Positions 2,327 through 15,280 of a stretch of 25,311 bases of DNA are shown piece after piece. The DNA lies in IMG/VR virus record IMGVR_UViG_3300037189_023016, positions 1-25,311 of that record, one strand, 5' to 3'. This stretch comes from a virus. Every line of letters starts with the position of its first letter. Position 1 is the stretch's first letter. Below the pieces are notes generated by a model. That model was not told the DNA's origin and did no database searches. It saw only the letters and a program-made list of their open reading frames with translations. Position numbers and translations under genes: made by a program.

Positions 2327-2835
2327 TATAATCTTTGTTTAATAATGTTTAATCTATCAGCAGGTGTGTAGTGAGTTTCACAAATTACACTTACACTATA
2401 ACCAAAATTTTCTAGTCCAGGATTTAATGGGTTAGCAGTATATGGGTAGTCAGGATCTTTACCTACAAAATATTGAGTATCATATGTGTTATCTACTTCA
2501 AAGTAACTTTCTTGATATAAAATGATATCTCCAATTTGAGGGACAACGTTAGCATCTAACAAATCATCTCTTAAAAAAGCTACTTTGATACTCCAATTAA
2601 AATCTACTCCCAATTCACTAGTACCATCAGTTTTGTTTTCAATAGTAATTAATGAATTAAATAATGATGGACCTTCATAGTATTTGCCTCCAGAAGCTTC
2701 ACCATACATATTTACTATGGTTTTGTCTAAAACAAATTTATACAGAGCACATTGTTGAGTAATAATATTTCCCATCAACTCTCGGTTAATTTTTCTAATT
2801 AGACTTACATCTCTACTACCTCCAAATAGTGCCAT
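2326..2835 (-). CDS. gp14-like neck protein
   Basis: This 169-residue protein lies between gp13-like and gp15-like genes and overlaps both by one base, giving a translationally compact 13-14-15 cassette. In T4, gp13 and gp14 complete the head by forming the neck to which the finished tail binds. Visible features are an N-terminal helix (SLIRKINRELMGNIITQQCA), a central beta segment (LGVDFNWSIKVAFL) and a C-terminal block with GDIILYQESYFEVDNTYDTQ and YSVSVICETHYTPADRLNI. The last block resembles the conserved gp14 pattern in which a statement of an interface plane is followed by 'FEI..V....FY..GK...Y...CELF'. Similarity is recognised by pattern, not by alignment. The position makes gp14 the best call. 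Confidence 0.55.
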   Translation of the reverse strand: MALFGGSRDVSLIRKINRELMGNIITQQCALYKFVLDKTIVNMYGEASGGKYYEGPSLFNSLITIENKTDGTSELGVDFNWSIKVAFLRDDLLDANVVPQIGDIILYQESYFEVDNTYDTQYFVGKDPDYPYTANPLNPGLENFGYSVSVICETHYTPADRLNIIKQRL

Positions 2836-3995
2836 TATCCTATGTATATTACCATTGGTACATTATTAATTTCTTGCTTTCTAAAATCACTTTCTTGAGC
2901 TCTTCTTTCAAGTAAAGATCTTTTAGAAGTTTCATCAAAGTATGCTCTAATTCTTTCAATTAAGGCTTGCTTTTCAGCTGTAGCAGCAGCTAATAAATCT
3001 GATTGGTTAAGAGTTACTTCTCTATCCGGGATAGGGACAGTACTGTATTTACCTCTAATATATCCAAGCATTTCTTTACATAGTGCCAGTGTGTATTCAA
3101 AAATCCATTGTCTACCAATAGAATTTATATATGAATACGTTGGATTAACATATGGAGCGTTAGAAGCATTACTTACTCCACCCGTTGATACTAACCCATT
3201 GTTAGCTCTATCATATATTTTTATATAATTAAACCACAAACGTCCTCCTCTAGTATCTGAATCTGAAGGGATTGGGAATATACGGAGTTTATTATTAATG
3301 AGTTGAAATGTGTAGTTAGATAAGCGTACTGTGTTGCTCATTTCAATAGCTTGCATAGTGCCCAAATCATAGGATAAAGGCATCATAAGATAACCAACAC
3401 CATATCCACTACCTAGCATACCTCCACCATAAAGTCCAGCAGAAGGTACACCTCCTAATCCAGCAAATCCACCATACGGAGCATACAATTGGTTAATTGC
3501 AGGTAAAGGATAGTAGAATACTTGTTTAATTTCAATACCTCCAGAAATGTTATTATCTAAAGCCCATTGGGTTAAGTCATAATCTTGGATGCTAGAAGTT
3601 AAAGCAATAGAACCACTATAATAAGTTACATTTCCTCCTACTCCTGCTTCTTCACCATATTGTTGAGATAATCGAATTATACCTCCCATATTAGGGGTAA
3701 ATACGGAGTTATTTGCAATTGAACTTGTGGATGCCCCCTCCAATGATAATAAATTATCTCGCACTTGATACGCATATAATTCATTACCATACGTGGTAAT
3801 AGCCTCTTCAAATGCTGTGTAAAAATTTACATCTTGTAACTCAACATCTGTTAATGGATACCCTAATCTGCGAGCACAAAAAGTAACTACTTTATCAGCA
3901 TCAGATTGGAATTGGAAATCATAATCATAAAATCCAAAGGGTGTATCTCCAGGTGTAAATGAAGAACTACCGGGATATATAGGGATATTAGCCAT
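2835..3995 (-). CDS. gp13-like neck protein
   Basis: The gene is read from ATG at 3995 (protein start MANIPIYPGSSS). A TTG further upstream at 4031 would add 12 residues, but it overlaps the conserved TATTTATA element at 4017-4010, so I reject it. The protein is about 386 residues. Near residues 35-70 it has the layout VTFCARRLGYPLTDVELQD followed by AFEEAITTYGNE. This matches T4 gp13, where 'LRRIGDPTIKLNLTDDQIFDSIQDAIDYFIE' opens the protein. A Gly-rich insertion (AGLGGVPSAGLYGGGMLGSG) lies in the middle. A conserved-looking C-terminal helical segment begins GRQWIFEYTLALCKEMLGYI. Together with the gp14-like and gp15-like genes that follow, it should form the head-tail neck. T4 gp13 is about 309 residues, so this is somewhat long. 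Confidence 0.6.
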   Translation of the reverse strand: MANIPIYPGSSSFTPGDTPFGFYDYDFQFQSDADKVVTFCARRLGYPLTDVELQDVNFYTAFEEAITTYGNELYAYQVRDNLLSLEGASTSSIANNSVFTPNMGGIIRLSQQYGEEAGVGGNVTYYSGSIALTSSIQDYDLTQWALDNNISGGIEIKQVFYYPLPAINQLYAPYGGFAGLGGVPSAGLYGGGMLGSGYGVGYLMMPLSYDLGTMQAIEMSNTVRLSNYTFQLINNKLRIFPIPSDSDTRGGRLWFNYIKIYDRANNGLVSTGGVSNASNAPYVNPTYSYINSIGRQWIFEYTLALCKEMLGYIRGKYSTVPIPDREVTLNQSDLLAAATAEKQALIERIRAYFDETSKRSLLERRAQESDFRKQEINNVPMVIYIG

Positions 3996-4009
3996 GGATA
4001 GGGTTTGTG

Positions 4010-4017
4010 TATAAATA
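4010..4017 (-). promoter_or_regulatory. TATTTATA element before the gp13-like gene
   Basis: The coding strand reads TATTTATA, then 14 bases, then ATG at 3995. It is preceded by A (ATATTTATA) and followed by CACAAACCC. It sits just downstream of the terminator at 4031-4053, so it is well placed to start the 13-14-15 unit. Confidence 0.6.
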
Positions 4018-4030
4018 TTAGGAGAAAACA

Positions 4031-4053
4031 AAAGACCCTCAAATGGGGTCTTT
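4031..4053 (-). terminator. Intrinsic terminator after the 503-aa fibre gene
   Basis: A perfect eight-base stem AAAGACCC/GGGTCTTT encloses a seven-base loop. It is followed on the minus strand by TGTTTT and on the plus strand by a T run, so it could act in both directions. It lies about 20 bases after the stop of the 5586-4075 gene. A second TATTTATA (4069-4062) sits between that stop and the stem. Confidence 0.8.
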
Positions 4054-4074
4054 TTGTATTATATAAATAATAAA

Positions 4075-5586
4075 TTATAGAGTTTCTACACTTACGTATC
4101 TTACAACACTGCTATCTCCAGTATTACTATTTTGAAGATGAACAGTTATGAATTGACTTTGACCACCTCCAATAGGACGATATGTTATAGGTAATGCATT
4201 AGAAGCAGTAGTACTAGCAGTTACATCAGTAAGTGCTGATGAAGCTGTAGGAAATACAACGGTTCTGCCTGAGCTACTAACTACTAAAGTTCGCTCAAAT
4301 TGGGCATATAATTGGTTTGCATCCATAGTGTACTGTCCTAAGAGATTAGTATCAGCTCCAGCAGTAGAGTCATCGTTGTAAACAGAAATAGTTGTAGTTC
4401 CAGCAGTACCTGTTTTAGTAATTAAAGCCTTTATGTGGTATATACTTCCCGTACCTATAGTTCCAAGAGATAAAGAACTTGATAAAGATAATGTTCTACC
4501 AGTAGTACCTGTTACTGTAGCGCCACCAGCTTGTCTAGCTACTACATGAGAAAAAGGATATGCACCGTCACCTGGAGGGGTAATGCTTCTATAAACTCCA
4601 TTAACACTATCATTAGATATAACATATTTAGGAGTATATACTTTTGAAAGATCGTATTGTGCAAAAGAACCAGTAGGTGTATTACTTATAATATTCCCTG
4701 TAATTGTTGTAGTGCTTCCACTTAATGTAACACCATTAGCACCTACGAATGTTATTGTGCCGTTGGCAGGTCCAGTTAAATTAGTAAATCTACCTAAAGT
4801 TAAAGTAGCAATCCCCGATCCATCACTTCCAGTTATAGATCCAGTTAATATCATTCGGTTCTGTAATGTTAGTGAACCAGATATTATGGCTGAGCCGGTG
4901 TATGGGAAAGTAGCTCCTCCACCTCCAAGGGCACTTGAAGCTGTAGCATATACTCTACCACTGCCATCTATACCTAATACATTTACTATTGAACTTGTAG
5001 TTACAGAAGGTAATGAAAGGTATGATGGGTTACTCCAATCTAAGTGAACAGTAGTTCCATCATTAGCGTATAAATTTCTATTTTCCCAATCAATTGAGGT
5101 ATTGGCTGAGCTATCGTAGGTTGCATTAGTAGCAAAATCTACAGTTGTACTACCAGCTGAGTTAAGATATCCATTCTCCCAATCTACAGCTACATTGCCA
5201 CTACTATCATATAAAGAATATTGGGTTGTGTCTAGAACATTAGATGCTCCACTTTTAATTTTAAGGGAACCAGTTATAACAGCACTACCTGAGTATGGAA
5301 ATGGTTGGGTTGAGGGTGAAGTTAAAGCATATGATGCTGTTAAAGCATTAACAGAGTAGCTAGATGTTAAAGCATATGATGATGTTCTAGCAAAACTAGC
5401 TGTTAAAGCATATGAGGAAGTTCTTGCATTACTAGCACTTACAGCATATGATGCTGTTACAGCATATGATGCCGTAATAGCATTTGATGCGGTAACTGCA
5501 GATGATGCTGTAACTGAAAGACTACCTGAAATGGTAATAGTATCTCCTGAATATGGTTGGATGAGGTTTACTTTTATAGTGCTCAT
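4075..5586 (-). CDS. Tail fibre protein with hexapeptide repeats (503 aa)
   Basis: The N-terminus MSTIKVNLIQPYSGDTITIS is closely similar to the starts of the three paralogous fibres to its right (MSTLQVN...PYSGDTL), so all four probably share an attachment peptide. Residues ~25-89 are hexapeptide repeats of the form [T/S]-[A/S]-S-[Y/N/F]-A-x. These are followed by Ser/Gly-rich beta segments (PYSGSAVITGSLKI, PYTGSAIISGSLTL) typical of trimeric phage fibre shafts. The C-terminal ~130 residues (from about TPTGSFAQYDLSKVY) look like a globular tip, ending SNTGDSSVVRYVSVETL. The gene is flanked by its own TATTTATA element and by terminators on both sides, so it looks monocistronic. The receptor is unknown. 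Confidence 0.7.
   Translation of the reverse strand: MSTIKVNLIQPYSGDTITISGSLSVTASSAVTASNAITASYAVTASYAVSASNARTSSYALTASFARTSSYALTSSYSVNALTASYALTSPSTQPFPYSGSAVITGSLKIKSGASNVLDTTQYSLYDSSGNVAVDWENGYLNSAGSTTVDFATNATYDSSANTSIDWENRNLYANDGTTVHLDWSNPSYLSLPSVTTSSIVNVLGIDGSGRVYATASSALGGGGATFPYTGSAIISGSLTLQNRMILTGSITGSDGSGIATLTLGRFTNLTGPANGTITFVGANGVTLSGSTTTITGNIISNTPTGSFAQYDLSKVYTPKYVISNDSVNGVYRSITPPGDGAYPFSHVVARQAGGATVTGTTGRTLSLSSSLSLGTIGTGSIYHIKALITKTGTAGTTTISVYNDDSTAGADTNLLGQYTMDANQLYAQFERTLVVSSSGRTVVFPTASSALTDVTASTTASNALPITYRPIGGGQSQFITVHLQNSNTGDSSVVRYVSVETL
5320..5514 (-). repeat. Degenerate 18-bp coding repeats (hexapeptide TASYAx)
   Basis: About ten degenerate units encode TASSAV, TASNAI, TASYAV, TASYAV, SASNAR, TSSYAL, TASFAR, TSSYAL and similar units inside the 503-aa fibre gene. 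The DNA shows the recurring core gcatatgatgctgt on the plus strand. Related units occur in the gene entering at the left edge. Confidence 0.75.
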
Positions 5587-5605
5587 TGCTGATGTATGGT
5601 TTTGT

Positions 5606-5613
5606 TATAAATA
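5606..5613 (-). promoter_or_regulatory. TATTTATA element before the 503-aa fibre gene
   Basis: TATTTATA is followed by ACAAAACC and lies 19 bases before the ATG at 5586. It comes immediately after the terminator at 5622-5645, which isolates this gene from the fibre array upstream. Confidence 0.6.
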
Positions 5614-5621
5614 TACACAAA

Positions 5622-5645
5622 AAAAGGCCTCCTTAGAGACCTTTT
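5622..5645 (-). terminator. Intrinsic terminator after the 120-aa partner gene
   Basis: The stem AAAAGG-C-CTC/GAG-A-CCTTTT has ten positions with one mismatch and a four-base loop. On the minus strand it is followed by a run of seven T. It lies 20 bases after the stop of the 6028-5666 gene and closes the paralogous fibre array. Confidence 0.75.
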
Positions 5646-5665
5646 AATTTTTAAATTCAAGGTTA

Positions 5666-6028
5666 TTAAACAGATCCTGAGAGGATACCTATTTGGAGTT
5701 GGAATGGTCCCTTGATAAGGCTATCACTTAATCCACCAGTTGAAAAGGTTTGGATAATTAATGCATTAGAGGAAGTAGTATATACTATAAATCCACTACT
5801 TGTATCACTTTGGTTTAAAGGAGTATAGGCGAATTGAATACCTAAACTACCTGTTGTAGATCCTGAAGAGACGGTGGGGGCAAAGTTACCTGAGGATACA
5901 AGTCGATATGTTCCGGCACTTAGTCTAGACCAAGATCCGGTAATGGAATTTTTGCCTCCTAATGAGGCGGTGATTGAGCCGGTTCCAGTTTGGGTTAAGC
6001 TTGCAGAATATAGTACGTAAAGGGGCAT
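5666..6028 (-). CDS. Small fibre-associated protein, copy B (120 aa)
   Basis: This 120-residue, Ser/Thr/Gly-rich protein of predicted beta character starts MPLYVLYSASLTQTG. It is a paralogue of the 123-aa protein at 7845-7474. The shared pattern is LYSASLTQTG, ITAS, ITGSW, a Tyr-plus-Ser stretch, TGSL.I...YTP, a hydrophobic strand, then LIKG..Q..IGI near the C-terminus. Each copy directly follows a paralogous large fibre gene, so the pair looks duplicated as a fibre-plus-partner cassette. A role as a fibre tip, fibre-capping or assembly partner is inference from context. I do not recognise a known family. The gene is closed by the terminator at 5622-5645. Confidence 0.6.
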   Translation of the reverse strand: MPLYVLYSASLTQTGTGSITASLGGKNSITGSWSRLSAGTYRLVSSGNFAPTVSSGSTTGSLGIQFAYTPLNQSDTSSGFIVYTTSSNALIIQTFSTGGLSDSLIKGPFQLQIGILSGSV

Positions 6029-6055
6029 GTTATTTTATTTTTTGATAATGTTATT

Positions 6056-6063
6056 TATAAATA
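6056..6063 (-). promoter_or_regulatory. TATTTATA element before small partner copy B
   Basis: TATTTATA directly abuts the stop codon of the upstream fibre gene (6064-6066). It lies 27 bases before the ATG at 6028, the longest spacing of the set. Confidence 0.5.
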
Positions 6064-7449
6064 TTACAATGATTCGTAATCTATCACTATTTTTACTTTA
6101 AGACCATTTATATATGCATTTTGGTTATGTTCGAGAAATACACCAAAATTACTTACATAATACATATCTAATGTTATTAATGAATAATCCTCTGCAATAG
6201 GGTCATATACAAGTCCATTGGGAATAGCTCCTAAAAGTGTCATTCCCGCTCCTTTACCTAAAAACATGTATGGTTGAGAATTATTAAAATATGGATTTGC
6301 ATTTAAATCCAATTGATAATAAGTTGTCCCAGGATCACCAGGGTTAGCGGATAAATTTCCTGTAAAATCATATGCTGAAAGAGGCACATATCCTGGATTG
6401 AGGGGTACTAAAGTGCCTGGTGTTGAAAATGCAGTAGTTCCTAAGCTGTTTAGGATTAATCCACCTTGCCAAAATCCGGAAGTGTTAATAGAGTTAGCAA
6501 ACGGAGTGTAAATATTAGTAATAAGAGTTTCTGCAACTGAACTATTAAGGAATTGAGGGTCAGCATGGATAGTAGTTCCTTGTTGATAAAAATCTAATCT
6601 AGCATCAGCTGAGTAATTTATGGATAGATATGATCCTATAGAAGAAGATAGATTAGTATATACCTTTATACTGTTTATTTTTTTCCAAGCAGTACTTGGG
6701 AGTTGAGAAACATTTGTATAAGCATATGTTACGTATTGGTTTCCAAATACAGTACTCCCTAAATAGGCATCATGTAAAGGTCTATTAAGTATATTATAGC
6801 TATCTATGTTTTGACCTATTCCTATCCCACCTGTTACATATATGTTATTACTAATTATACCTATAGCTTGATAAAAGAATTGATTTGGAGCAAGGCTTTG
6901 AGTTACAAGTATACCTCCAATTACATCAGATTGAACCACTCCACTAGGAGTAGGAGGAGATACAATAGACCAACCACCAGGGAGTGGATTCTCCCAACAT
7001 ACAAATTTATATGCTATACCATCAGAAGGAAGTGTAGTAGAGCTATTTGTGATACCATTAATACTTCCACCACTAACACCTGGAAAGATGTGAATTGGGA
7101 TTCCACTAAGGTTGATTAATGTTACTTCTTTGCCTTTATTAGGGATTTGAGGAAGTTTAACACAGTAGTTATCAGCATTAGCATAACTTATAACATTTAC
7201 CCCATAATTTAAAAATACAGTTCCGTTAGTAGTTGAAAATCCTAAAGAATCTAAAGATGAAGTTCCACTAGCAGAAATATTAGCTACAGGATTAACTACT
7301 CCATTACCTATATTTGGGAATCTTAAGTCTCCACTAGATGTAATAGCAGTACCTACAGATAAAGCACCTGAAATATAAGTAATAGAGGAGCTTAAATGTA
7401 AAGTATCACCAGAATAGGGTTGGGTGTTATTGACTTGTAATGTGCTCAT
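6064..7449 (-). CDS. Paralogous tail fibre, copy 3 (461 aa)
   Basis: This is the last of three tandem fibre paralogues. It starts MSTLQVNNTQPYSGDTL. Residues ~36-175 form the conserved N-terminal module (SSGDLRFPNIGNGVVNPVAN; NYGVNVISYANADNYCVKLP; NKGKEVTLINLSG; VCWENPLPGGWSIVS). Residues ~176-340 are unlike the other copies. Then LNPGYVPLSAYDFTG and NPGDPGTTYYQLD mark the second conserved block. The C-terminus YINGLKVKIVIDYESL matches the other copies. No chaperone or peptidase domain is visible. The inferred role is host recognition, with conserved ends for virion attachment and trimer closure and a divergent centre. It is followed by small partner copy B. Confidence 0.7.
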   Translation of the reverse strand: MSTLQVNNTQPYSGDTLHLSSSITYISGALSVGTAITSSGDLRFPNIGNGVVNPVANISASGTSSLDSLGFSTTNGTVFLNYGVNVISYANADNYCVKLPQIPNKGKEVTLINLSGIPIHIFPGVSGGSINGITNSSTTLPSDGIAYKFVCWENPLPGGWSIVSPPTPSGVVQSDVIGGILVTQSLAPNQFFYQAIGIISNNIYVTGGIGIGQNIDSYNILNRPLHDAYLGSTVFGNQYVTYAYTNVSQLPSTAWKKINSIKVYTNLSSSIGSYLSINYSADARLDFYQQGTTIHADPQFLNSSVAETLITNIYTPFANSINTSGFWQGGLILNSLGTTAFSTPGTLVPLNPGYVPLSAYDFTGNLSANPGDPGTTYYQLDLNANPYFNNSQPYMFLGKGAGMTLLGAIPNGLVYDPIAEDYSLITLDMYYVSNFGVFLEHNQNAYINGLKVKIVIDYESL

Positions 7450-7462
7450 GTTGGTTTTTGAG

Positions 7463-7470
7463 TATAAATA
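7463..7470 (-). promoter_or_regulatory. TATTTATA element before fibre copy 3
   Basis: TATTTATA, then CTCAAAAACCAAC (13 bases), then ATG at 7449. It lies three bases after the stop of the 123-aa gene. Confidence 0.6.
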
Positions 7471-7473
7471 TTA

Positions 7474-7845
7474 TTAGGAATCAATGCCAATTATAAATTG
7501 TAGATTTCCTTTAATGAGGTTATTAGCTAAAGAGCTACTTGTTTCTCCAGCTATAGTATTAACAACTATATGCCTAAGAGAAGAACTCTGATATATAAAA
7601 ATACTAGCTGTATCAGTGCTTGAAAAAGAAGGAGTATAGGTATAACCTATAACTAAACTTCCTGTTGCTGAGCCAGACGGTCTATAATCTGGGAATAGTC
7701 TAATAGACGAAGAAAAGATATATTTTCCTGGGGATGAGTATAACCATGATCCAGTGATGGTTGTATCTTTAGCGCTAACAGAAGCAGTTATAGGAGCTGA
7801 TCCGGTTTGAGTTAAGCTAGCTGAGTATAGGGTTCTGAATGCCAT
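7474..7845 (-). CDS. Small fibre-associated protein, copy A (123 aa)
   Basis: This is the paralogue of the 120-aa protein at 6028-5666. It starts MAFRTLYSASLTQTGSAPIT and ends LIKGNLQFIIGIDS. It is Ser/Thr-rich with alternating hydrophobic residues, consistent with an all-beta fold, and has no signal peptide or membrane segment. It begins 19 bases after the stop of fibre copy 2 with no TATTTATA element or Shine-Dalgarno in that gap, so it is likely expressed from the same transcript. No copy follows fibre copy 1, which suggests that the duplication unit was fibre plus partner and that one partner was lost or never present. Function is unknown. Confidence 0.6.
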   Translation of the reverse strand: MAFRTLYSASLTQTGSAPITASVSAKDTTITGSWLYSSPGKYIFSSSIRLFPDYRPSGSATGSLVIGYTYTPSFSSTDTASIFIYQSSSLRHIVVNTIAGETSSSLANNLIKGNLQFIIGIDS

Positions 7846-7864
7846 TTTATTATAGGGGGTATTA

Positions 7865-9349
7865 TTAAATAGGGGTATATTCTATTACCATTTGGAGTTG
7901 TAAGCCATTAATATAAACAGGAGTATAAAATATAGGTATAACTCCAAATCCACCATTCCATCTCATGTCATATACTCCAGATACTCCATTATCATTGGTT
8001 GCAGAAATAGTATCTACAATATAAGAACCAATTCCTTTAGTTATAAACGAAAAATATGGATCAGCAGTAGTCATATTAGATAAATTGTAGGTGTAATAAG
8101 TAGTACCCGGATCACCAACATTAGCTGCTAAATCTCCAGTAAAATCCATTTCACTAATAGGAACATAACTTGGATCAACAGGTGTAAAAGTACCAGGTAC
8201 GTTATTAACAGTTAAAAGTCTTTGGTTAGAATAAGACATTATTCCTCCTCCTGCCCATATTGTAGGATCCCAGTATGGATCAATTTCTAAAGTATTGTGA
8301 GCGAAATCAAGGAGCTGGGTGTTATTAAAGTTAGTAAGAGCAGCAGTTGACGTAAAGTCACTGTTATATAGCGCAACAGTTCCAGGGTCATATAGCTCTA
8401 CATATTCTGTAGTGCCTGCTATATATGGAGTAACATAAAAACTACCTGCAAATCTAATACTAGCTAACCCATTAGTGTGGGGAGAAATAAATTGTGCATA
8501 ATTATTTGATTGCACATTTGATGCTGAGAAGTTGGTATAAATTGTTATAGTATTAATTTTAAGCCAAAATTCACTAGGATCGGATATATGGGTATACCAA
8601 TTGTTAGGGGATATAGTAATTAATGCTGTTCCAACTGTTGCAATAGGTTGAATAAAGTAATTATTTGGGTTTGTTTGGGGAAAATAATTTCTAGAATACC
8701 CTGTAAACCCAGACGAACCTTCTCCTGAATATAGATACATAGCATCATTTACCATGGGAAGTTCATCCCACCATGCAAATCCTCCAGCAGCAGGCATACT
8801 AGCAGAAATAAGGATACCGCCAATAACCCCACTATTAACTACATTAGTGGTTCCAGTACTAACTAAAGACCAACCACCAGGAAGCGGATTTTCCCAGCAT
8901 ACAAATTTATACGCAGTGCCATTAGATGGAATAGTAATATCATTATTAATAAGACCATTCAAACTTCCACTAGTAGACCCAGGGAAGAGGTGAATATTCA
9001 TACCACTATTATTAACAACTGTTACTTCTTTACCTTTAGTAGGAGTAAGAGGTAATCTTACACAATAGCTTTGGCTATTGGCAAATGTAATAACATTAAC
9101 TCCATAATTTAAATAAGTAGAAGTATTAGTAAAATTATTTCCATTTGGATTTAAAGATGAAGTACCACTAGCGGATATGTTAATCACAGGATTAACTACT
9201 CCATCACCCATGTCTGGGAATCTTAGGTCTCCACTTGAAGTGATAGATCTATTAGCTATTAAATTTTCACTAGCTTCTACAAAAGTCCCGCTAACATTAA
9301 GGGTACTTCCAGAATATGGAAATATAGTATTTACTTGTAAAGTACTCAT
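7865..9349 (-). CDS. Paralogous tail fibre, copy 2 (494 aa)
   Basis: This is the middle member of the array, starting MSTLQVNTIFPYSGSTLNVS. Its N-terminal module (SSGDLRFPDMGDGVVNPV; NYGVNVITFANSQSYCVRLP; KGKEVTVVNNSG; VCWENPLPGGWSLVS) aligns codon for codon with copies 1 and 3. The centre (~175-385) is the longest and most different of the three, Tyr/Trp/Asn-rich (for example GGFAWWDELPMVNDAMYLYS). The conserved PGTFTPVDPSYVPISEMDFT and NPGDPGTTYY-type block (here NVGDPGTTYYTYN) follow. The protein ends YINGLQLQMVIEYTPI. It starts 20 bases after the previous stop and has no TATTTATA element, so it is probably transcribed with copy 1. The likely role is as an alternative receptor-binding fibre, inferred from architecture. 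Confidence 0.7.
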   Translation of the reverse strand: MSTLQVNTIFPYSGSTLNVSGTFVEASENLIANRSITSSGDLRFPDMGDGVVNPVINISASGTSSLNPNGNNFTNTSTYLNYGVNVITFANSQSYCVRLPLTPTKGKEVTVVNNSGMNIHLFPGSTSGSLNGLINNDITIPSNGTAYKFVCWENPLPGGWSLVSTGTTNVVNSGVIGGILISASMPAAGGFAWWDELPMVNDAMYLYSGEGSSGFTGYSRNYFPQTNPNNYFIQPIATVGTALITISPNNWYTHISDPSEFWLKINTITIYTNFSASNVQSNNYAQFISPHTNGLASIRFAGSFYVTPYIAGTTEYVELYDPGTVALYNSDFTSTAALTNFNNTQLLDFAHNTLEIDPYWDPTIWAGGGIMSYSNQRLLTVNNVPGTFTPVDPSYVPISEMDFTGDLAANVGDPGTTYYTYNLSNMTTADPYFSFITKGIGSYIVDTISATNDNGVSGVYDMRWNGGFGVIPIFYTPVYINGLQLQMVIEYTPI

Positions 9350-9369
9350 GTTTTTTTTATATATTTTTA

Positions 9370-10773
9370 TTATGGGTATGGAACGTAATCTATAATAACT
9401 TTTAATTTTAAGCCATCTATGTATGCTCTTCTATCTAAAAGAAAACGGAAACCAAAATTTGAAAAATACCAAATATCTATCTGGTCACCATCAGCATCTG
9501 TAATTCCTGGAGGTGTTGTGGCTATATTAAACATACCTACACCCTTACCAAAACTATTACCCCAAGAACTGCTAGAGTTATCACTATTGCTACGATCAGT
9601 ATAATAATATGTTGTACCAGGATCGCCTGGGTTAGTAGATAAGTACCCGGTCCAGTCAAAGGTAGAAGTAGGAACATAGTTAGGGTCTGCAGGAGTAAAA
9701 GTACCAGGTATATAGTCTATAATAGAAGAATTACCATTATAAGTACTATAAAAAGGACCCATTGAAGCATATCCGTATCCCCCTGGGAAACTAAGATCAT
9801 CTAGCGCTAAGTCGTTAAAAAATTCAGGCACTCCTGAAGTATTGTTAAACCAGTTTACATAGGTAGGGTCTTCATAATCAAAATAATTTGCTTCTGTAGT
9901 AGTACCTGTTTTAAAGAACCCTATATTACCATGATATACAACGACAAAATTAATAGGGTCAGGGGATGAAGATTCTCCAGAAGAAGATAAATTAGTAAGT
10001 ATTGTTATATTATTTATTTTTCTAATATTAGGTTCTGGGGTGAAAAACGCATATGGAGATGTAGGGCCTGTACCATAGTGACCAGCACCATGAAGATTTC
10101 CATTAAGTAAATAAGAGCCGTTGGCGAATTCAGCAGCAGAAAAAGTGGTTTGACCTCCTAAATCATATAAAGTATTACTAACAAATGCGTTAACTTGGTA
10201 AAAAGTTGAGGTAGAAAACGCGCTTTGGGTTATAAGTAAACCTCCAATTACATCGGATTGAATAACGGTAGAAGCACCCGCACTAACTAAAGACCAACCT
10301 CCAGGAAGCGGGTTTTCCCAACACACGAATTTATATGCTATACCATCAGAGGGAATAGTAATATCATTACCTACAACACTATTAACACTTCCTCCTTCTA
10401 CTCCAGGAAACACATATACTGGGAGTCCACTGAGGTTGACTAGGGTTACTTCTTTACCTTTAGTAGGTGTAGAAGGTAATTTAACACAGTAGTTATCTGC
10501 ATCTGAGTAATTTATAACATTAATTCCATAGTTTAGGAATGTTGTAGAGGTAGTAGTAGATATACCTATAGGGCTAAGTGATGAGGTTCCGCTAGCAGAA
10601 ACATCAGTTACAGGGTTAACTACCCCTGTTCCCATATTTGGGAATCTTAAATCTCCACTAGAAGTAATAGAAGTATTAACTGTTAGTGATCCAGATATTA
10701 ATACGGTAGATCCACTTAAAATTAGTGTATCTCCGGAATATGGTTGGAGGGTATTTACTTGTAAAGTACTCAT
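9370..10773 (-). CDS. Paralogous tail fibre, copy 1 (467 aa)
   Basis: This is the first member of the array, starting MSTLQVNTLQPYSGDTLILS. The N-terminal module covers residues 1 to ~174 and includes SSGDLRFPNMGTGVVNPV, NYGINVINYSDADNYCVKLP and VCWENPLPGGWSLVS, then DVIGGLLITQS. A divergent centre follows, then PGTFTPADPNYVPTSTFDWT and NPGDPGTTYYYTD. The last 30 residues contain FGFRF and YIDGLKLKVIIDY. The ATG lies seven bases after the stop of the SHAEG-repeat fibre gene, so translational coupling is likely. Unlike copies 2 and 3, no small partner gene follows; copy 2 starts 20 bases after its stop. No enzymatic motif was seen. Confidence 0.7.
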   Translation of the reverse strand: MSTLQVNTLQPYSGDTLILSGSTVLISGSLTVNTSITSSGDLRFPNMGTGVVNPVTDVSASGTSSLSPIGISTTTSTTFLNYGINVINYSDADNYCVKLPSTPTKGKEVTLVNLSGLPVYVFPGVEGGSVNSVVGNDITIPSDGIAYKFVCWENPLPGGWSLVSAGASTVIQSDVIGGLLITQSAFSTSTFYQVNAFVSNTLYDLGGQTTFSAAEFANGSYLLNGNLHGAGHYGTGPTSPYAFFTPEPNIRKINNITILTNLSSSGESSSPDPINFVVVYHGNIGFFKTGTTTEANYFDYEDPTYVNWFNNTSGVPEFFNDLALDDLSFPGGYGYASMGPFYSTYNGNSSIIDYIPGTFTPADPNYVPTSTFDWTGYLSTNPGDPGTTYYYTDRSNSDNSSSSWGNSFGKGVGMFNIATTPPGITDADGDQIDIWYFSNFGFRFLLDRRAYIDGLKLKVIIDYVPYP

Positions 10774-10780
10774 GTGTATA

Positions 10781-12400
10781 TTAAGATAATCTTATTTGTA
10801 ATGTGTTTCCATTTCTATAAATTCCACCAACGACTACACCTAAAAGAGCAGCAGCAGCATCACTTATAGCATTAGGAAGGGTATTTAAATCTAAAGTTAC
10901 ACTTCCGTTAAGGTTAGTTTCACCACTAACTTGCAATGTTTGTGATTGAAGTTGTTGTGGAGTAGCTATTTCACCTAAAACAGTAAGGAATGAATTATTT
11001 TGTACAATAGCTTCATTAGGTAATCCAACAGTAGGTCCAAATAATACAGCATTGTTATTTGAAGGTACATCTATGTTATAGTTAACAATCTGTGGAGTAA
11101 CAAATGTACCATCTACAGTTACAGATCCTGTTACTGTTACAGTATCATTAGCATATGTAAAGCTTGGGCTACCAGCAAATGTATCATTATCATTGAATTG
11201 TATCTCAGTATTGTTACCACCTGGAGTTCCACTTCCACCGCTACCTGATGATGCTTCTATATATCCTAATCTGCCTGTAGTAGGATTAAAACTTACTACA
11301 TATCCTGAAGCGGATAATGGGATGCCTTGAAGGAATACATTAGATGCGCTTATTTGGAAATGAGAAGCAGATGCAAATAATAAATTGCGTCTGTTACTAA
11401 CTGATGTGCCTCCACCTATAATAAATGCGCTTTGAGAAGCAACAGCAAGGTTATATTGACCTACTACAGTTTGATATGAACCTGTAGCTATGGAATATAA
11501 ACCTTCAGCGTGGGAATAATTACCTGTTGCTGTTGTAAGGCGTCCTTCAGCATGTGAACCTACACCTGTTGCTTGAGTAGAATCACCTTCAGCATGTGAG
11601 TAGTTACCAGTAGCAGAAGCATTATTACCTTCAGCATGTGATGCTTCACCAGTAGCAGAGGTTTTAGAACCTTCAGCATGTGCTCCTATTCCTGAAGCTG
11701 TATTACCTGTACCTTCAGCATGTGAATAAAGACCTGATGCTACAGTAAGTTGTCCTTGTGCGTGTGAAAAATTACCGCTAGAAGTTACTGAGACACCTTG
11801 AGAAAATGATCCTGTTCCTGAAGCTTGGTTAAGTCTACCAACAGAAAATGAACCTCGTCTGCCTATACTACCTGAACCAGCTATAAGGGTTTCTACATAA
11901 ACCATCCCACTAGATAATGGATTTCCGGTTACTCCTAATTCGCCTATGGCTTTAATAGAAGCTACTACTCCTCCTGTAGCTGTAGTAAAGTTTACAGATC
12001 CAGTTCCTACATAAACCGATTTCCAGAATTGGGTTTCAGAACCCAAGGATAAATCATTATTACCTGAAGGAGGGAGGAGTGGGGAGGAAAGTTGAATACC
12101 ACCACTTGAATTAATGCTTATACTTGAGGTGGTTTTATTACCACCTGAACCTGATACAAATTTGATAGATCCATCACCTACCCATACATCAGCCCAAGCA
12201 TGGTTTTCATCTCCTAAACTAAAGCTAGAAGTTACGATTCCATTTATTGGATCTAGATCATAGCCAGATGCAGGAATAATACTTCCTGATATGGACATAG
12301 ACCCAGAAATACCGTGGGATCCGGTGAAGTATCTAAAATTATTATCAATTTCGTCAGTAGTTAACGGGCGATTGATTTCACTTCTAAATGTTAATGCCAT
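10781..12400 (-). CDS. Tail fibre with YadA-like SHAEG head repeats (539 aa)
   Basis: The protein begins MALTFRSEINRPLTTDEIDN, a leader common to phage fibre and baseplate-attached proteins. Two similar beta segments follow (SLGDENHAWADVWVGDGSIK and SLGSETQFWKSVYVGTGSVN). Residues ~181-310 hold about nine to ten 14-residue units with the core SHAEGxxTxATG. These resemble the left-handed parallel beta-roll repeats of YadA/Hia-type trimeric adhesin heads (established for that family). Next come QSAFIIGGGTSVSNRRNLL and a second shaft (GGNNTEIQFNDNDTFAGSPS). The C-terminus ends GIYRNGNTLQIRLS. I infer a trimeric fibre or whisker-like appendage, possibly adhesive. It has its own TATTTATA element and leads into the paralogous fibre array. 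Confidence 0.7.
   Translation of the reverse strand: MALTFRSEINRPLTTDEIDNNFRYFTGSHGISGSMSISGSIIPASGYDLDPINGIVTSSFSLGDENHAWADVWVGDGSIKFVSGSGGNKTTSSISINSSGGIQLSSPLLPPSGNNDLSLGSETQFWKSVYVGTGSVNFTTATGGVVASIKAIGELGVTGNPLSSGMVYVETLIAGSGSIGRRGSFSVGRLNQASGTGSFSQGVSVTSSGNFSHAQGQLTVASGLYSHAEGTGNTASGIGAHAEGSKTSATGEASHAEGNNASATGNYSHAEGDSTQATGVGSHAEGRLTTATGNYSHAEGLYSIATGSYQTVVGQYNLAVASQSAFIIGGGTSVSNRRNLLFASASHFQISASNVFLQGIPLSASGYVVSFNPTTGRLGYIEASSGSGGSGTPGGNNTEIQFNDNDTFAGSPSFTYANDTVTVTGSVTVDGTFVTPQIVNYNIDVPSNNNAVLFGPTVGLPNEAIVQNNSFLTVLGEIATPQQLQSQTLQVSGETNLNGSVTLDLNTLPNAISDAAAALLGVVVGGIYRNGNTLQIRLS
11455..11860 (-). repeat. 42-bp coding repeats (14-residue SHAEG units)
   Basis: About ten degenerate 42-bp units lie inside the 539-aa fibre gene. 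The plus strand shows repeated ccttcagcatgtga. Amino-acid units include YSHAEGTGNTASGI, GAHAEGSKTSATGE, ASHAEGNNASATGN, YSHAEGDSTQATGV and GSHAEGRLTTATGN. The outermost units are degenerate (GSFSQG, FSHAQG, YQTVVG). Confidence 0.8.
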
Positions 12401-12412
12401 GTCTGTTTTATT

Positions 12413-12420
12413 TATAAATA
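12413..12420 (-). promoter_or_regulatory. TATTTATA element before the SHAEG fibre gene
   Basis: TATTTATA, then AATAAAACAGAC (12 bases), then ATG at 12400. It sits 10 bases after the stop of the 161-aa gene. Confidence 0.6.
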
Positions 12421-12430
12421 TGTTGTAATT

Positions 12431-12916
12431 TTATGAGGATGCCACAAAATACTCGAGTTGAACATTAGCTACTTCTGCTTTTGCTTTTATTGTATCATAA
12501 TAAATAAAGCTAGAGTAATAATCTTCATCTCCGATTCCAGTTACAACATAGTCGCCGTTTTGTGAAGCATTAAAGTCAGCATTACCAAACATTAATGATT
12601 TTCCGGCTTCTAATTTAAATAAAACACTTTCTTGAGATATATTGAGTATATATATTAATACGTAATTTTCTGAATCTAGATTAGTAATTCGAATGTATTT
12701 AACATCCGATTTAACAAACGATCCAGCAACTTGTTCTTCTTCACTATCAACAAACTTTAAAAGCTGGATACCAGAACCACTAAAATTAGTAGCGATAGTA
12801 TCAATTCTTCTAAGAGTTTGATTGACTCCTGAGATAATATGGGAGTTAAAGAGATTTTCTTTATTACCATTAGGCAGGGTTATGTTCTCTTGAATAGTTA
12901 CTGTTAAGTCGGCCAT
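12431..12916 (-). CDS. Probable virion structural protein (161 aa)
   Basis: This 161-residue protein starts MADLTVTIQENITLPNGNKE. It has alternating hydrophobic segments suggestive of a beta-sandwich (KYIRITNLDSENYVLIYILN; VLFKLEAGKSLMFGNADFNA) and ends VANVQLEYFVASS. Small proteins with a similar 'ITNLD..N.V.L.I...' core followed by 'F.L..G.S..' occur as structural proteins in T4-like phages of aquatic bacteria. Its place between PhoH and the fibre locus fits a baseplate, head-decoration or fibre-attachment protein. It has its own upstream element and stands alone or with the fibre gene that follows. The exact role is not recognisable. Confidence 0.5.
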   Translation of the reverse strand: MADLTVTIQENITLPNGNKENLFNSHIISGVNQTLRRIDTIATNFSGSGIQLLKFVDSEEEQVAGSFVKSDVKYIRITNLDSENYVLIYILNISQESVLFKLEAGKSLMFGNADFNASQNGDYVVTGIGDEDYYSSFIYYDTIKAKAEVANVQLEYFVASS

Positions 12917-14368: not shown

Positions 14369-15280
14369 TTAGATCAAAGTTTTATTGTAATCAACATAAT
14401 TTAAATGCATCAACATACAGCTCAATAAAGCTCCTGATTTCATATATTCAGAGAGATTAAAAATAACAGGTTCCATACCTTCATGAGCACATATTTTTTC
14501 CAGTGACTGGATTTTGTGGGCTTCAAGGGTATAAAGTTCGTCTGTCTTTTTAAGTTCAGAAATATTAGAAGCACATAAGATGGCATTACCTAAACGCACA
14601 GAATTTGTAATACCTCCAAATGCATCATCTTCACTTACATCTACAATATCGGTGTATTTACTTAATATATTCAATTCATCTTGTGAATATAACGAAGTAC
14701 ATATCATTGTTTTATCTTTAGATATAGGAAATACTGAGCAATCTAAATGGTATAGATATTCTTCTATCATTTCTACGGTAATAATATTCATATCAAATTC
14801 TTTAGACATCCATTCGTATGTTTCTTTTTGTGAACGGATACCATATCCTCCTATATACGTGTTACCATGTAAATACTTTAAATCCGCTTCACCTTCCCAC
14901 TTATGTGGGCTGATGTGTGTTTTGTAACCCATCATATCAAAGAATTTTTTACCAACATGTTCTTCACCTTGTCTAGGTTCTGAAGTGTAGTTGGAAAGCA
15001 ATATGGTATTTTCTTTTAGATGAGGCAAATATATACCAAGATTAGCTACATATACTTGATCTTGAAAATTACCTTCAGCTGGGAGAACATAGCATAATCC
15101 GGAGCCGGCTATAAAATTATAAAGATCTAGAAATTGTTTATATGCTTTATTGCGATTTACTTTTAAATCATCCGGAGAAAGTTCTTTCATCCAGATATTA
15201 TTTGGACTTGAAGTGTCCAAAGTAAATGGAAAATTCATTACATAGGACGGAACACTTAATTGCGACGGAGTTTCTTTCAT
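14369..15280 (-). CDS. Pentein/amidinotransferase-family enzyme (DDAH/arginine deiminase-like)
   Basis: This 303-residue protein carries the layout of guanidino-group modifying enzymes of the pentein fold. An early substrate loop QDQVYVANLGIYLP occurs at ~73-86. An acidic block WEGEADLKYL (~128-137) and YIGGYGIRSQKETYEW (~142-157) follow. A His motif YHLDCSVFPI lies at ~177-186 (His178 as general acid/base), and a C-terminal SGALLSCMLMHL holds the probable nucleophile Cys288. Known members hydrolyse methylarginine, arginine or agmatine, or transfer amidino groups. The precise substrate cannot be told from sequence. It has its own TATTTATA element after the capsid terminator and heads a three-gene non-structural unit with the psd-like and phoH-like genes. 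It is likely host-derived, an inference from family distribution. Confidence 0.75.
   Translation of the reverse strand: MKETPSQLSVPSYVMNFPFTLDTSSPNNIWMKELSPDDLKVNRNKAYKQFLDLYNFIAGSGLCYVLPAEGNFQDQVYVANLGIYLPHLKENTILLSNYTSEPRQGEEHVGKKFFDMMGYKTHISPHKWEGEADLKYLHGNTYIGGYGIRSQKETYEWMSKEFDMNIITVEMIEEYLYHLDCSVFPISKDKTMICTSLYSQDELNILSKYTDIVDVSEDDAFGGITNSVRLGNAILCASNISELKKTDELYTLEAHKIQSLEKICAHEGMEPVIFNLSEYMKSGALLSCMLMHLNYVDYNKTLI

Follow-up and report, generated by a model that had tools for sequence, protein, structure and literature searches.

Three tandem paralogues with a predicted XD1-type stem and divergent heads in a T4-like aquatic phage

In a report on phage CBA120, the structural relatives retrieved with DALI for the XD1 domain of tailspike TSP4 are gp9, gp10, 6O38 and 4DNY, and XD1 is suggested to serve as a spacer between interaction modules (PMC8825819). 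T4 gp9 itself is described as an XD1-fold domain followed by a C-terminal domain that docks the long tail fibre coaxially (PMC8825819, PMC3004832). Here we describe three tandem genes whose N-terminal stem has a similar predicted fold, carried by a 25,311-nt stretch of viral DNA (record IMGVR_UViG_3300037189_023016, positions 1 to 25,311; this whole stretch is called the window below) in which all main genes lie on the minus strand and the G+C content is 34%. We consider it reasonably probable that they encode three paralogous virion-surface proteins with a common XD1-type stem and three different, fast-evolving heads.

Segmental divergence of the three copies

Copy 1 (467 amino acids, aa; 9370-10773), copy 2 (494 aa; 7865-9349) and copy 3 (461 aa; 6064-7449), delimited by their open reading frames (ORFs) and by alignment, lie in tandem on the minus strand and all have intact reading frames; the triplication announced in an original prediction at this locus is confirmed. 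The first alignment gap appears only after column 167, slightly further than the roughly 154 gap-free residues initially proposed. Overall, the other two copies are 44% and 51% identical to copy 1 in protein sequence, and this similarity is very unevenly spread. Up to column 165, 30-column windows are 50-90% identical and pairwise aa identity is 47-73%; it is 21-31% in columns 187-405, 67-69% in a 36-column island named after its motif (NPGDPGTTYY in copies 1 and 3, NVGDPGTTYY in copy 2), again 21-31% in columns 442-500, and 37-44% in the last 28 columns. Near the C-terminus stands YIDGL in copy 1 and YINGL in copies 2 and 3, and both types of conserved block are present in all three copies, as first noticed. 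The idea that diversity is confined to the middle does not quite hold: the whole C-terminal domain is divergent apart from the island and the last strand. The copies are better described as a conserved N-terminal stem (residues 37-166; 10276-10665 in copy 1, 8852-9241 in copy 2 and 6952-7341 in copy 3, all placed by alignment and the first also by a model) followed by a divergent C-terminal domain in which one island is conserved and the last strand only weakly so. From segment identity, this head domain occupies 9373-10233 in copy 1 (residues 181-467), 7868-8809 in copy 2 and 6067-6909 in copy 3.

Nei-Gojobori ratios of non-synonymous to synonymous divergence (dN/dS) are 0.20-0.25 in columns 81-165 and 0.46-0.81 in columns 187-405, values that are only rough because silent sites are heavily diverged throughout (proportion of silent differences, pS, 0.42-0.75 to column 165 and 0.63-0.70 in the middle). 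The stem, with a dN/dS of about 0.2 in columns 81-165, is under purifying selection. Divergence by segment is non-uniform and strong similarity extends beyond short motifs, in agreement with the pattern originally proposed. Two DNA repeat families are common to the three copies: D1, 300 nt long, with 70-72% identity between its copies and the reference, and D5, 98 nt long, with 81-84%. An assembly duplication is an unlikely source of the triplication, since the copies are only 54-60% identical in DNA overall.

The stem family was found in seven other distinct records, with one copy each in the stretch searched, which was the whole record for L005, L017, L030 and L031 and the fetched stretch for L043 to L046, any of which may be fragments. 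L005 came from a scan with the first alignment, L017, L030 and L031 from backbone-gene and alignment scans, and L043 (L044 has the same protein), L045 and L046 from scans with L031 and L030. The stem is present in 5 of 24 records, and three copies are present only in the window. A single-protein scan with copy 1 gave no further members, tblastn with copy 1, the members of L017, L005, L031 and L045 and a small neighbouring paralogue (A, below) found none in 50,697 records of isolated phages, and no family member was confirmed in genome contigs.

Head homology links the window copies to the two nearest relatives, L017 (E 1.7e-17) and L005 (E 3.8e-5). Relative to both, the window copies form one clade in the stem tree (support 100/99) as well as in the head tree (100/98), and the duplications are therefore later than the split from L017 and L005. 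Tree paths within the window are 0.40-0.63 long for the stem and 2.35-3.65 for the head; the head/stem distance ratio is 4.4-6.6 in the three paralogue pairs compared with 1.6-2.2 in seven other pairs (L017-L005 included), these ratios being our own arithmetic on tree paths whose long branches are imprecise. Heads diverge faster within this phage than the stems predict, which may reflect diversifying selection or a replacement of heads.

Predicted fold of the stem

Copy 1 was modelled in full with AlphaFold2 from a 5-row alignment, and residues ~40-166 of the model were matched to solved folds. The best matches are KP1 baseplate chain 9f4b_FA, the Solidus tailspike and CBA120 TSP4 (Z 8.8 each), followed by KP1 chain 9f4a_LS (Z 7.7), T4 baseplate chain 5iv5_AC (Z 7.6; its 602 aa are the length of gp10), T4 gp9 1qex (Z 7.4), 6o38 (Z 7.0), the Pa223 capsid spike 9ny6 (Z 6.6) and 4dny (Z 5.4), after which the list falls to Z 3.6 and below. 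Among them, gp9, gp10, 6O38 and 4DNY make up the same set that is published for TSP4 XD1 in PMC8825819. The model of a distant relative, L031, has a better stem than that of copy 1, with a predicted local distance difference test (pLDDT) score of 69-80 there; T4 gp9 ranks first among its matches (Z 9.2, 89 aligned residues, root-mean-square deviation 3.0), a KP1 baseplate chain is the sole Foldseek match in the PDB at E<=0.001, and the tail fibre connector of Vibrio phage nt-1 is matched in a viral library (E 3.9e-5). On these models, residues ~37-166 of the copies would adopt an XD1-type fold. Since this predicted fold is shared by baseplate connectors, the stems of tailspikes and a capsid spike, the name tail fibre, first given to the copies, is too specific; what stands is that they are paralogues of virion type which have one stem in common and differ in their three heads. 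Solved structures searched by sequence returned azurin (E 0.15) and nucleus accumbens protein (E 0.95), both at chance level.

The window copies and the L031-type members are linked by hhalign in the stem only (probability 99.7, 92 columns). An alignment had suggested that the heads have core strands in common, but homology over the whole protein found no support in profile tests, where the best shuffled sequence reached 12.9 bits and the best real comparison 5.0 bits. The L031 head model has jelly-roll matches at Z about 6, which are not extended to the window heads because head homology to the L031-type members is unsupported. XD2, XD3 and tailspike bodies are not prominent in the fold lists of copy 1 and L031, the copy 1 model having a pLDDT below 50 beyond residue 166, and in the Pfam and PHROG scans the sole signal resembling a beta-helical tailspike body is a weak pectate-lyase-like match below cut-off in a 123-aa neighbouring gene.

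Proposed role and alternative explanations

In the explanation that we favour, each protein would begin with a short tip (residues 1-36), continue with an XD1-type stem (about 37-166) and end in a large C-terminal head (about 180-467), and by analogy with T4 gp9/gp10 and CBA120 TSP4 it would be a homotrimer. By the same analogies, tip and stem would anchor it to the virion, the baseplate periphery being the likeliest site, and the head would expose a surface that binds the host envelope or a partner fibre. The position of the genes supports this explanation, the copies lying upstream of a gp13-like neck gene, as in the T4 order 9-10-11-12-wac-13. Directly after copy 2 stands small paralogue A (123 aa; 7474-7845) and directly after copy 3 small paralogue B (120 aa; 5666-6028), both on the minus strand and recognised by sequence comparison (45% identity over 121 columns, E 5e-23); as these small genes are paralogous too, a cassette of stem-head gene plus small gene was probably duplicated. 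The stem-head gene with its small partner would thus have multiplied in this lineage, the stem being kept by purifying selection while the heads diverged, and one phage would probably possess three head types, all three copies presumably being part of the virion. A single virion may carry several head types.

Several results weigh against this explanation. The copy 1 model has a pLDDT of 36 overall and of about 60-66 in residues 91-150, and Z scores of 7-9 are near the level common among models without a clear match, so that the XD1 argument rests on the consistent set of matches. Up to E<=10, Pfam PF07880 (gp9/10) matches nothing in the window or in six other member records, in a search where the control proteins T4 gp9 and gp10 were matched at 2e-75 and 5e-65, and hhalign gives probabilities of 0.1 and 0.3 with T4 gp9 and gp10, respectively. 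The copies look in their models like XD1 proteins, yet at the sequence level they are kept apart from the gp9/10 family. Neither Pfam nor PHROG scans gave a significant match for the three copies, and the head lacks a confident fold or family. The XD1-like fold also occurs in capsid spike 9ny6, which makes a location on the phage head possible, and in L043 and L044 the family gene (5845-6867) stands shortly after a terminase and a portal that belong to other PHROGs than those of the window. A place after terminase and portal would be unusual for a tail adhesin.

Among the alternatives, a tentative one is that at least one head, that of copy 2 first, was swapped from another phage onto the common stem instead of diverging in place. 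Apart from the raised head/stem ratios of the paralogue pairs, it is favoured by the variable core, which is as different between the copies (19-31% identity) as between the copies and the single-copy relatives L017 and L005 (21-28%), and by codon choice. At identical amino acids in the three pairs pooled, 182 of 320 codons are shared in the stems (139 expected from codon usage) and 122 of 256 in the heads (117 expected), a contrast with p 0.03 when pooled and p 0.016 for copies 1-2, in tests that are uncorrected, made on non-independent pairs and sensitive to the alignment. However, copies 1-3 show no contrast (p 1.0), copies 2-3 give p 0.14 and the NPGDPGTTYY island alone, which is well aligned, p 0.19, and saturation together with poor alignment in the middle could create such a contrast. 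The three heads, moreover, form the well-supported clade mentioned above, and for the head as a whole the data reject a grouping of copy 2 with L017 (approximately unbiased test, p-AU 0.007). The codon contrast hints, if weakly, that heads are older or were replaced, in copy 2 above all.

It is somewhat doubtful that the heads act as fibre sockets, each docking a different tail fibre and not the host, with a divergence that would follow the partner fibres. The coaxial docking described for T4 gp9 provides a model, candidate fibre genes adjoin the copies on both sides (10781-12400 and 4075-5586), and a small paralogous partner gene comes after each of two copies. Nevertheless, the head measures ~285 residues here against ~123 in gp9 (288 aa, the matched stem ending at 165), and there is no sequence link between any copy and a given fibre.

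Similarly, it appears unlikely that the proteins are head-attached spikes or whiskers that decorate the capsid or neck instead of the baseplate. The Pa223 spike, the L043/L044 gene position and the place of the T4 whisker gene wac, just upstream of gene 13, speak for such a location, whereas the majority of the XD1 matches are baseplate or tailspike stems and the L043-type members are demonstrably homologous to the window copies in the stem only. A bolder extension of the explanation that we favour, in which a T4-like phage of Bacteroidota would mix three head types, interchangeable on one XD1 stem common to all and in two cases with a small partner, in equivalent baseplate sockets, while heads would be replaced as whole cassettes from related phages and the stem stays fixed, seems quite improbable to us.

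The host-range switch by recombination between copies at the conserved blocks that the original prediction envisaged is barely credible: such blocks do flank divergent sequence, and Kuttervirus tailspikes are proposed to recombine at a conserved motif (PMC8432352), but the longest identical runs between copies are 23, 23 and 19 nt, the runs in codons 1-165 were matched by 133, 182 and 403 of 2000 permutations and are not beyond chance, segment by segment the blocks mostly have 54-74% DNA identity, reaching 84% over 98 nt, their silent sites are heavily diverged, and neither a tract nor any other signal of gene conversion was found among the three copies. As to a diversity-generating retroelement, no template-type repeat was recognised in 4500-12500 and no reverse transcriptase among the genes scanned in the window, which is a fragment.

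Genomic context and comparison with known systems

PHROGs matches in the window include terminase, portal, head maturation protease, major head protein, PhoH and a gp13-like head-tail adaptor, and to judge from this gene content the window is a T4-like head/neck block. Among 2,418 records, the portal has its best match (59.5% identity over the full length) in the immuto group of Flavobacterium phages, by this protein the closest cultured relatives, and a Flavobacterium phage record of that group has the same order of terminase, portal, protease, capsid, PhoH and head completion genes; the source is a T4-like aquatic phage. Inside the head block, 14369-15280 encodes an amidinotransferase-like protein with 38-41% identity to genes of Campylobacter phages and Bacteroides thetaiotaomicron phages.

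The far border of the slot that holds the copies is the gp13-like adaptor gene (phrog_211; 2835-4031, minus strand). Its listed TTG start is probably wrong, as an ATG 36 nt downstream yields MANIPIYPGSSSF, in agreement with the starts of its relatives. Among 24 loci sharing the window's backbone gene, some of which look like near copies of one phage (L010-L012, L008-L009) and hence not 24 independent cases, PhoH and the gp13-like gene are both visible in 15, with a family member between them in none of these 15; slot content goes from nothing to several unrelated genes, and the slot is variable cargo in the relatives. In L017 the single member follows a homologue of 12431-12916 and the contig ends before the gp13-like gene, while in L005 it follows a homologue of 1049-2326 and is not in the slot before that gene.

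On one side, the copies adjoin a minus-strand gene for a 503-aa repeat-rich protein (4075-5586) that shares with them the N-terminal tip motif MSTxxVNxxxPYSG. Of 778 ORFs, 6 have the PYSG tip; besides the three copies and 4075-5586, these are one gene in L005 and one in L017. In both relatives it sits on a separate gene immediately before the stem-head gene, and the tip is, on this distribution, either joined to or split from the stem within the family. On the other side stands a 539-aa neighbour (10781-12400, minus strand) with SHAEG repeats, YadA-head-like and below the Pfam cut-off; a SHAEG gene likewise adjoins the single-copy member in L017 and L005. The repeats of the 539-aa neighbour have a 42-nt period, and its N-terminal motif LTxxEIDNNF also starts stand-alone genes of 108-132 aa in relatives, a distribution that suggests tip swapping.

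The T4 late promoter element is TATAAATA. In the window, TATTTATA is found on the minus strand at 4069, 5613, 6063, 7470, 12420, 15310, 21849 and 23795, and 8 of 23 gene starts have it within the preceding 60 nt, at a distance of 17-38 nt, compared with a mean of 0.19 and a maximum of 2 in Markov shuffles. It is also found at 4017, 22 nt before the alternative ATG of 2835-4031. ATATTTATA occurs seven times on the coding strand and never on the other, a bias shared by 18 of the 18 relatives counted, and the TATTTATA element may be a late promoter element.

With this locus, the XD1 stem of T4 gp9/gp10 and of enterobacterial tailspikes would extend to a sequence family that lacks a Pfam or PHROGs match and occurs in environmental phages, and the locus offers a case of stem and head evolving at unequal speed within a single genome. 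Should the proteins prove to be the adhesins, their stem sequence could be used to look for binding proteins in many phages that lack annotation.

Among the closest systems, the single-copy relatives L017 and L005 have the same homologous stem and head with adjoining SHAEG and PYSG-tip genes, and differ by their one copy each and by a PYSG tip on a separate preceding gene. With T4 gp9, the connector of baseplate wedge and long tail fibre, and with the N-terminal part of gp10, the copies share the predicted stem fold and a place just upstream of gene 13, and with gp9 also a C-terminal domain after the stem; in contrast, no sequence relation is detectable, and the window has three near-equal copies with a much larger divergent head. 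TSP1-4 of CBA120 and its Kuttervirus relatives are likewise several binding proteins encoded together, with an XD1 stem, a preserved N-terminus and a diverse C-terminus (PMC8825819, PMC8432352). In CBA120, TSP4 has XD1 and TSP2 only XD2-XD3, whereas an XD1-like stem is predicted in all three window copies. Unlike the Kuttervirus tailspikes with their XD1-XD2-XD3 stems, the window copies have no match to a tailspike-body profile and no recognised XD2 or XD3, and nothing in the window points to the use of a shared crossover motif. The arrangement is a variant of the known multi-adhesin arrangement, placed in a variable slot beside the neck genes.

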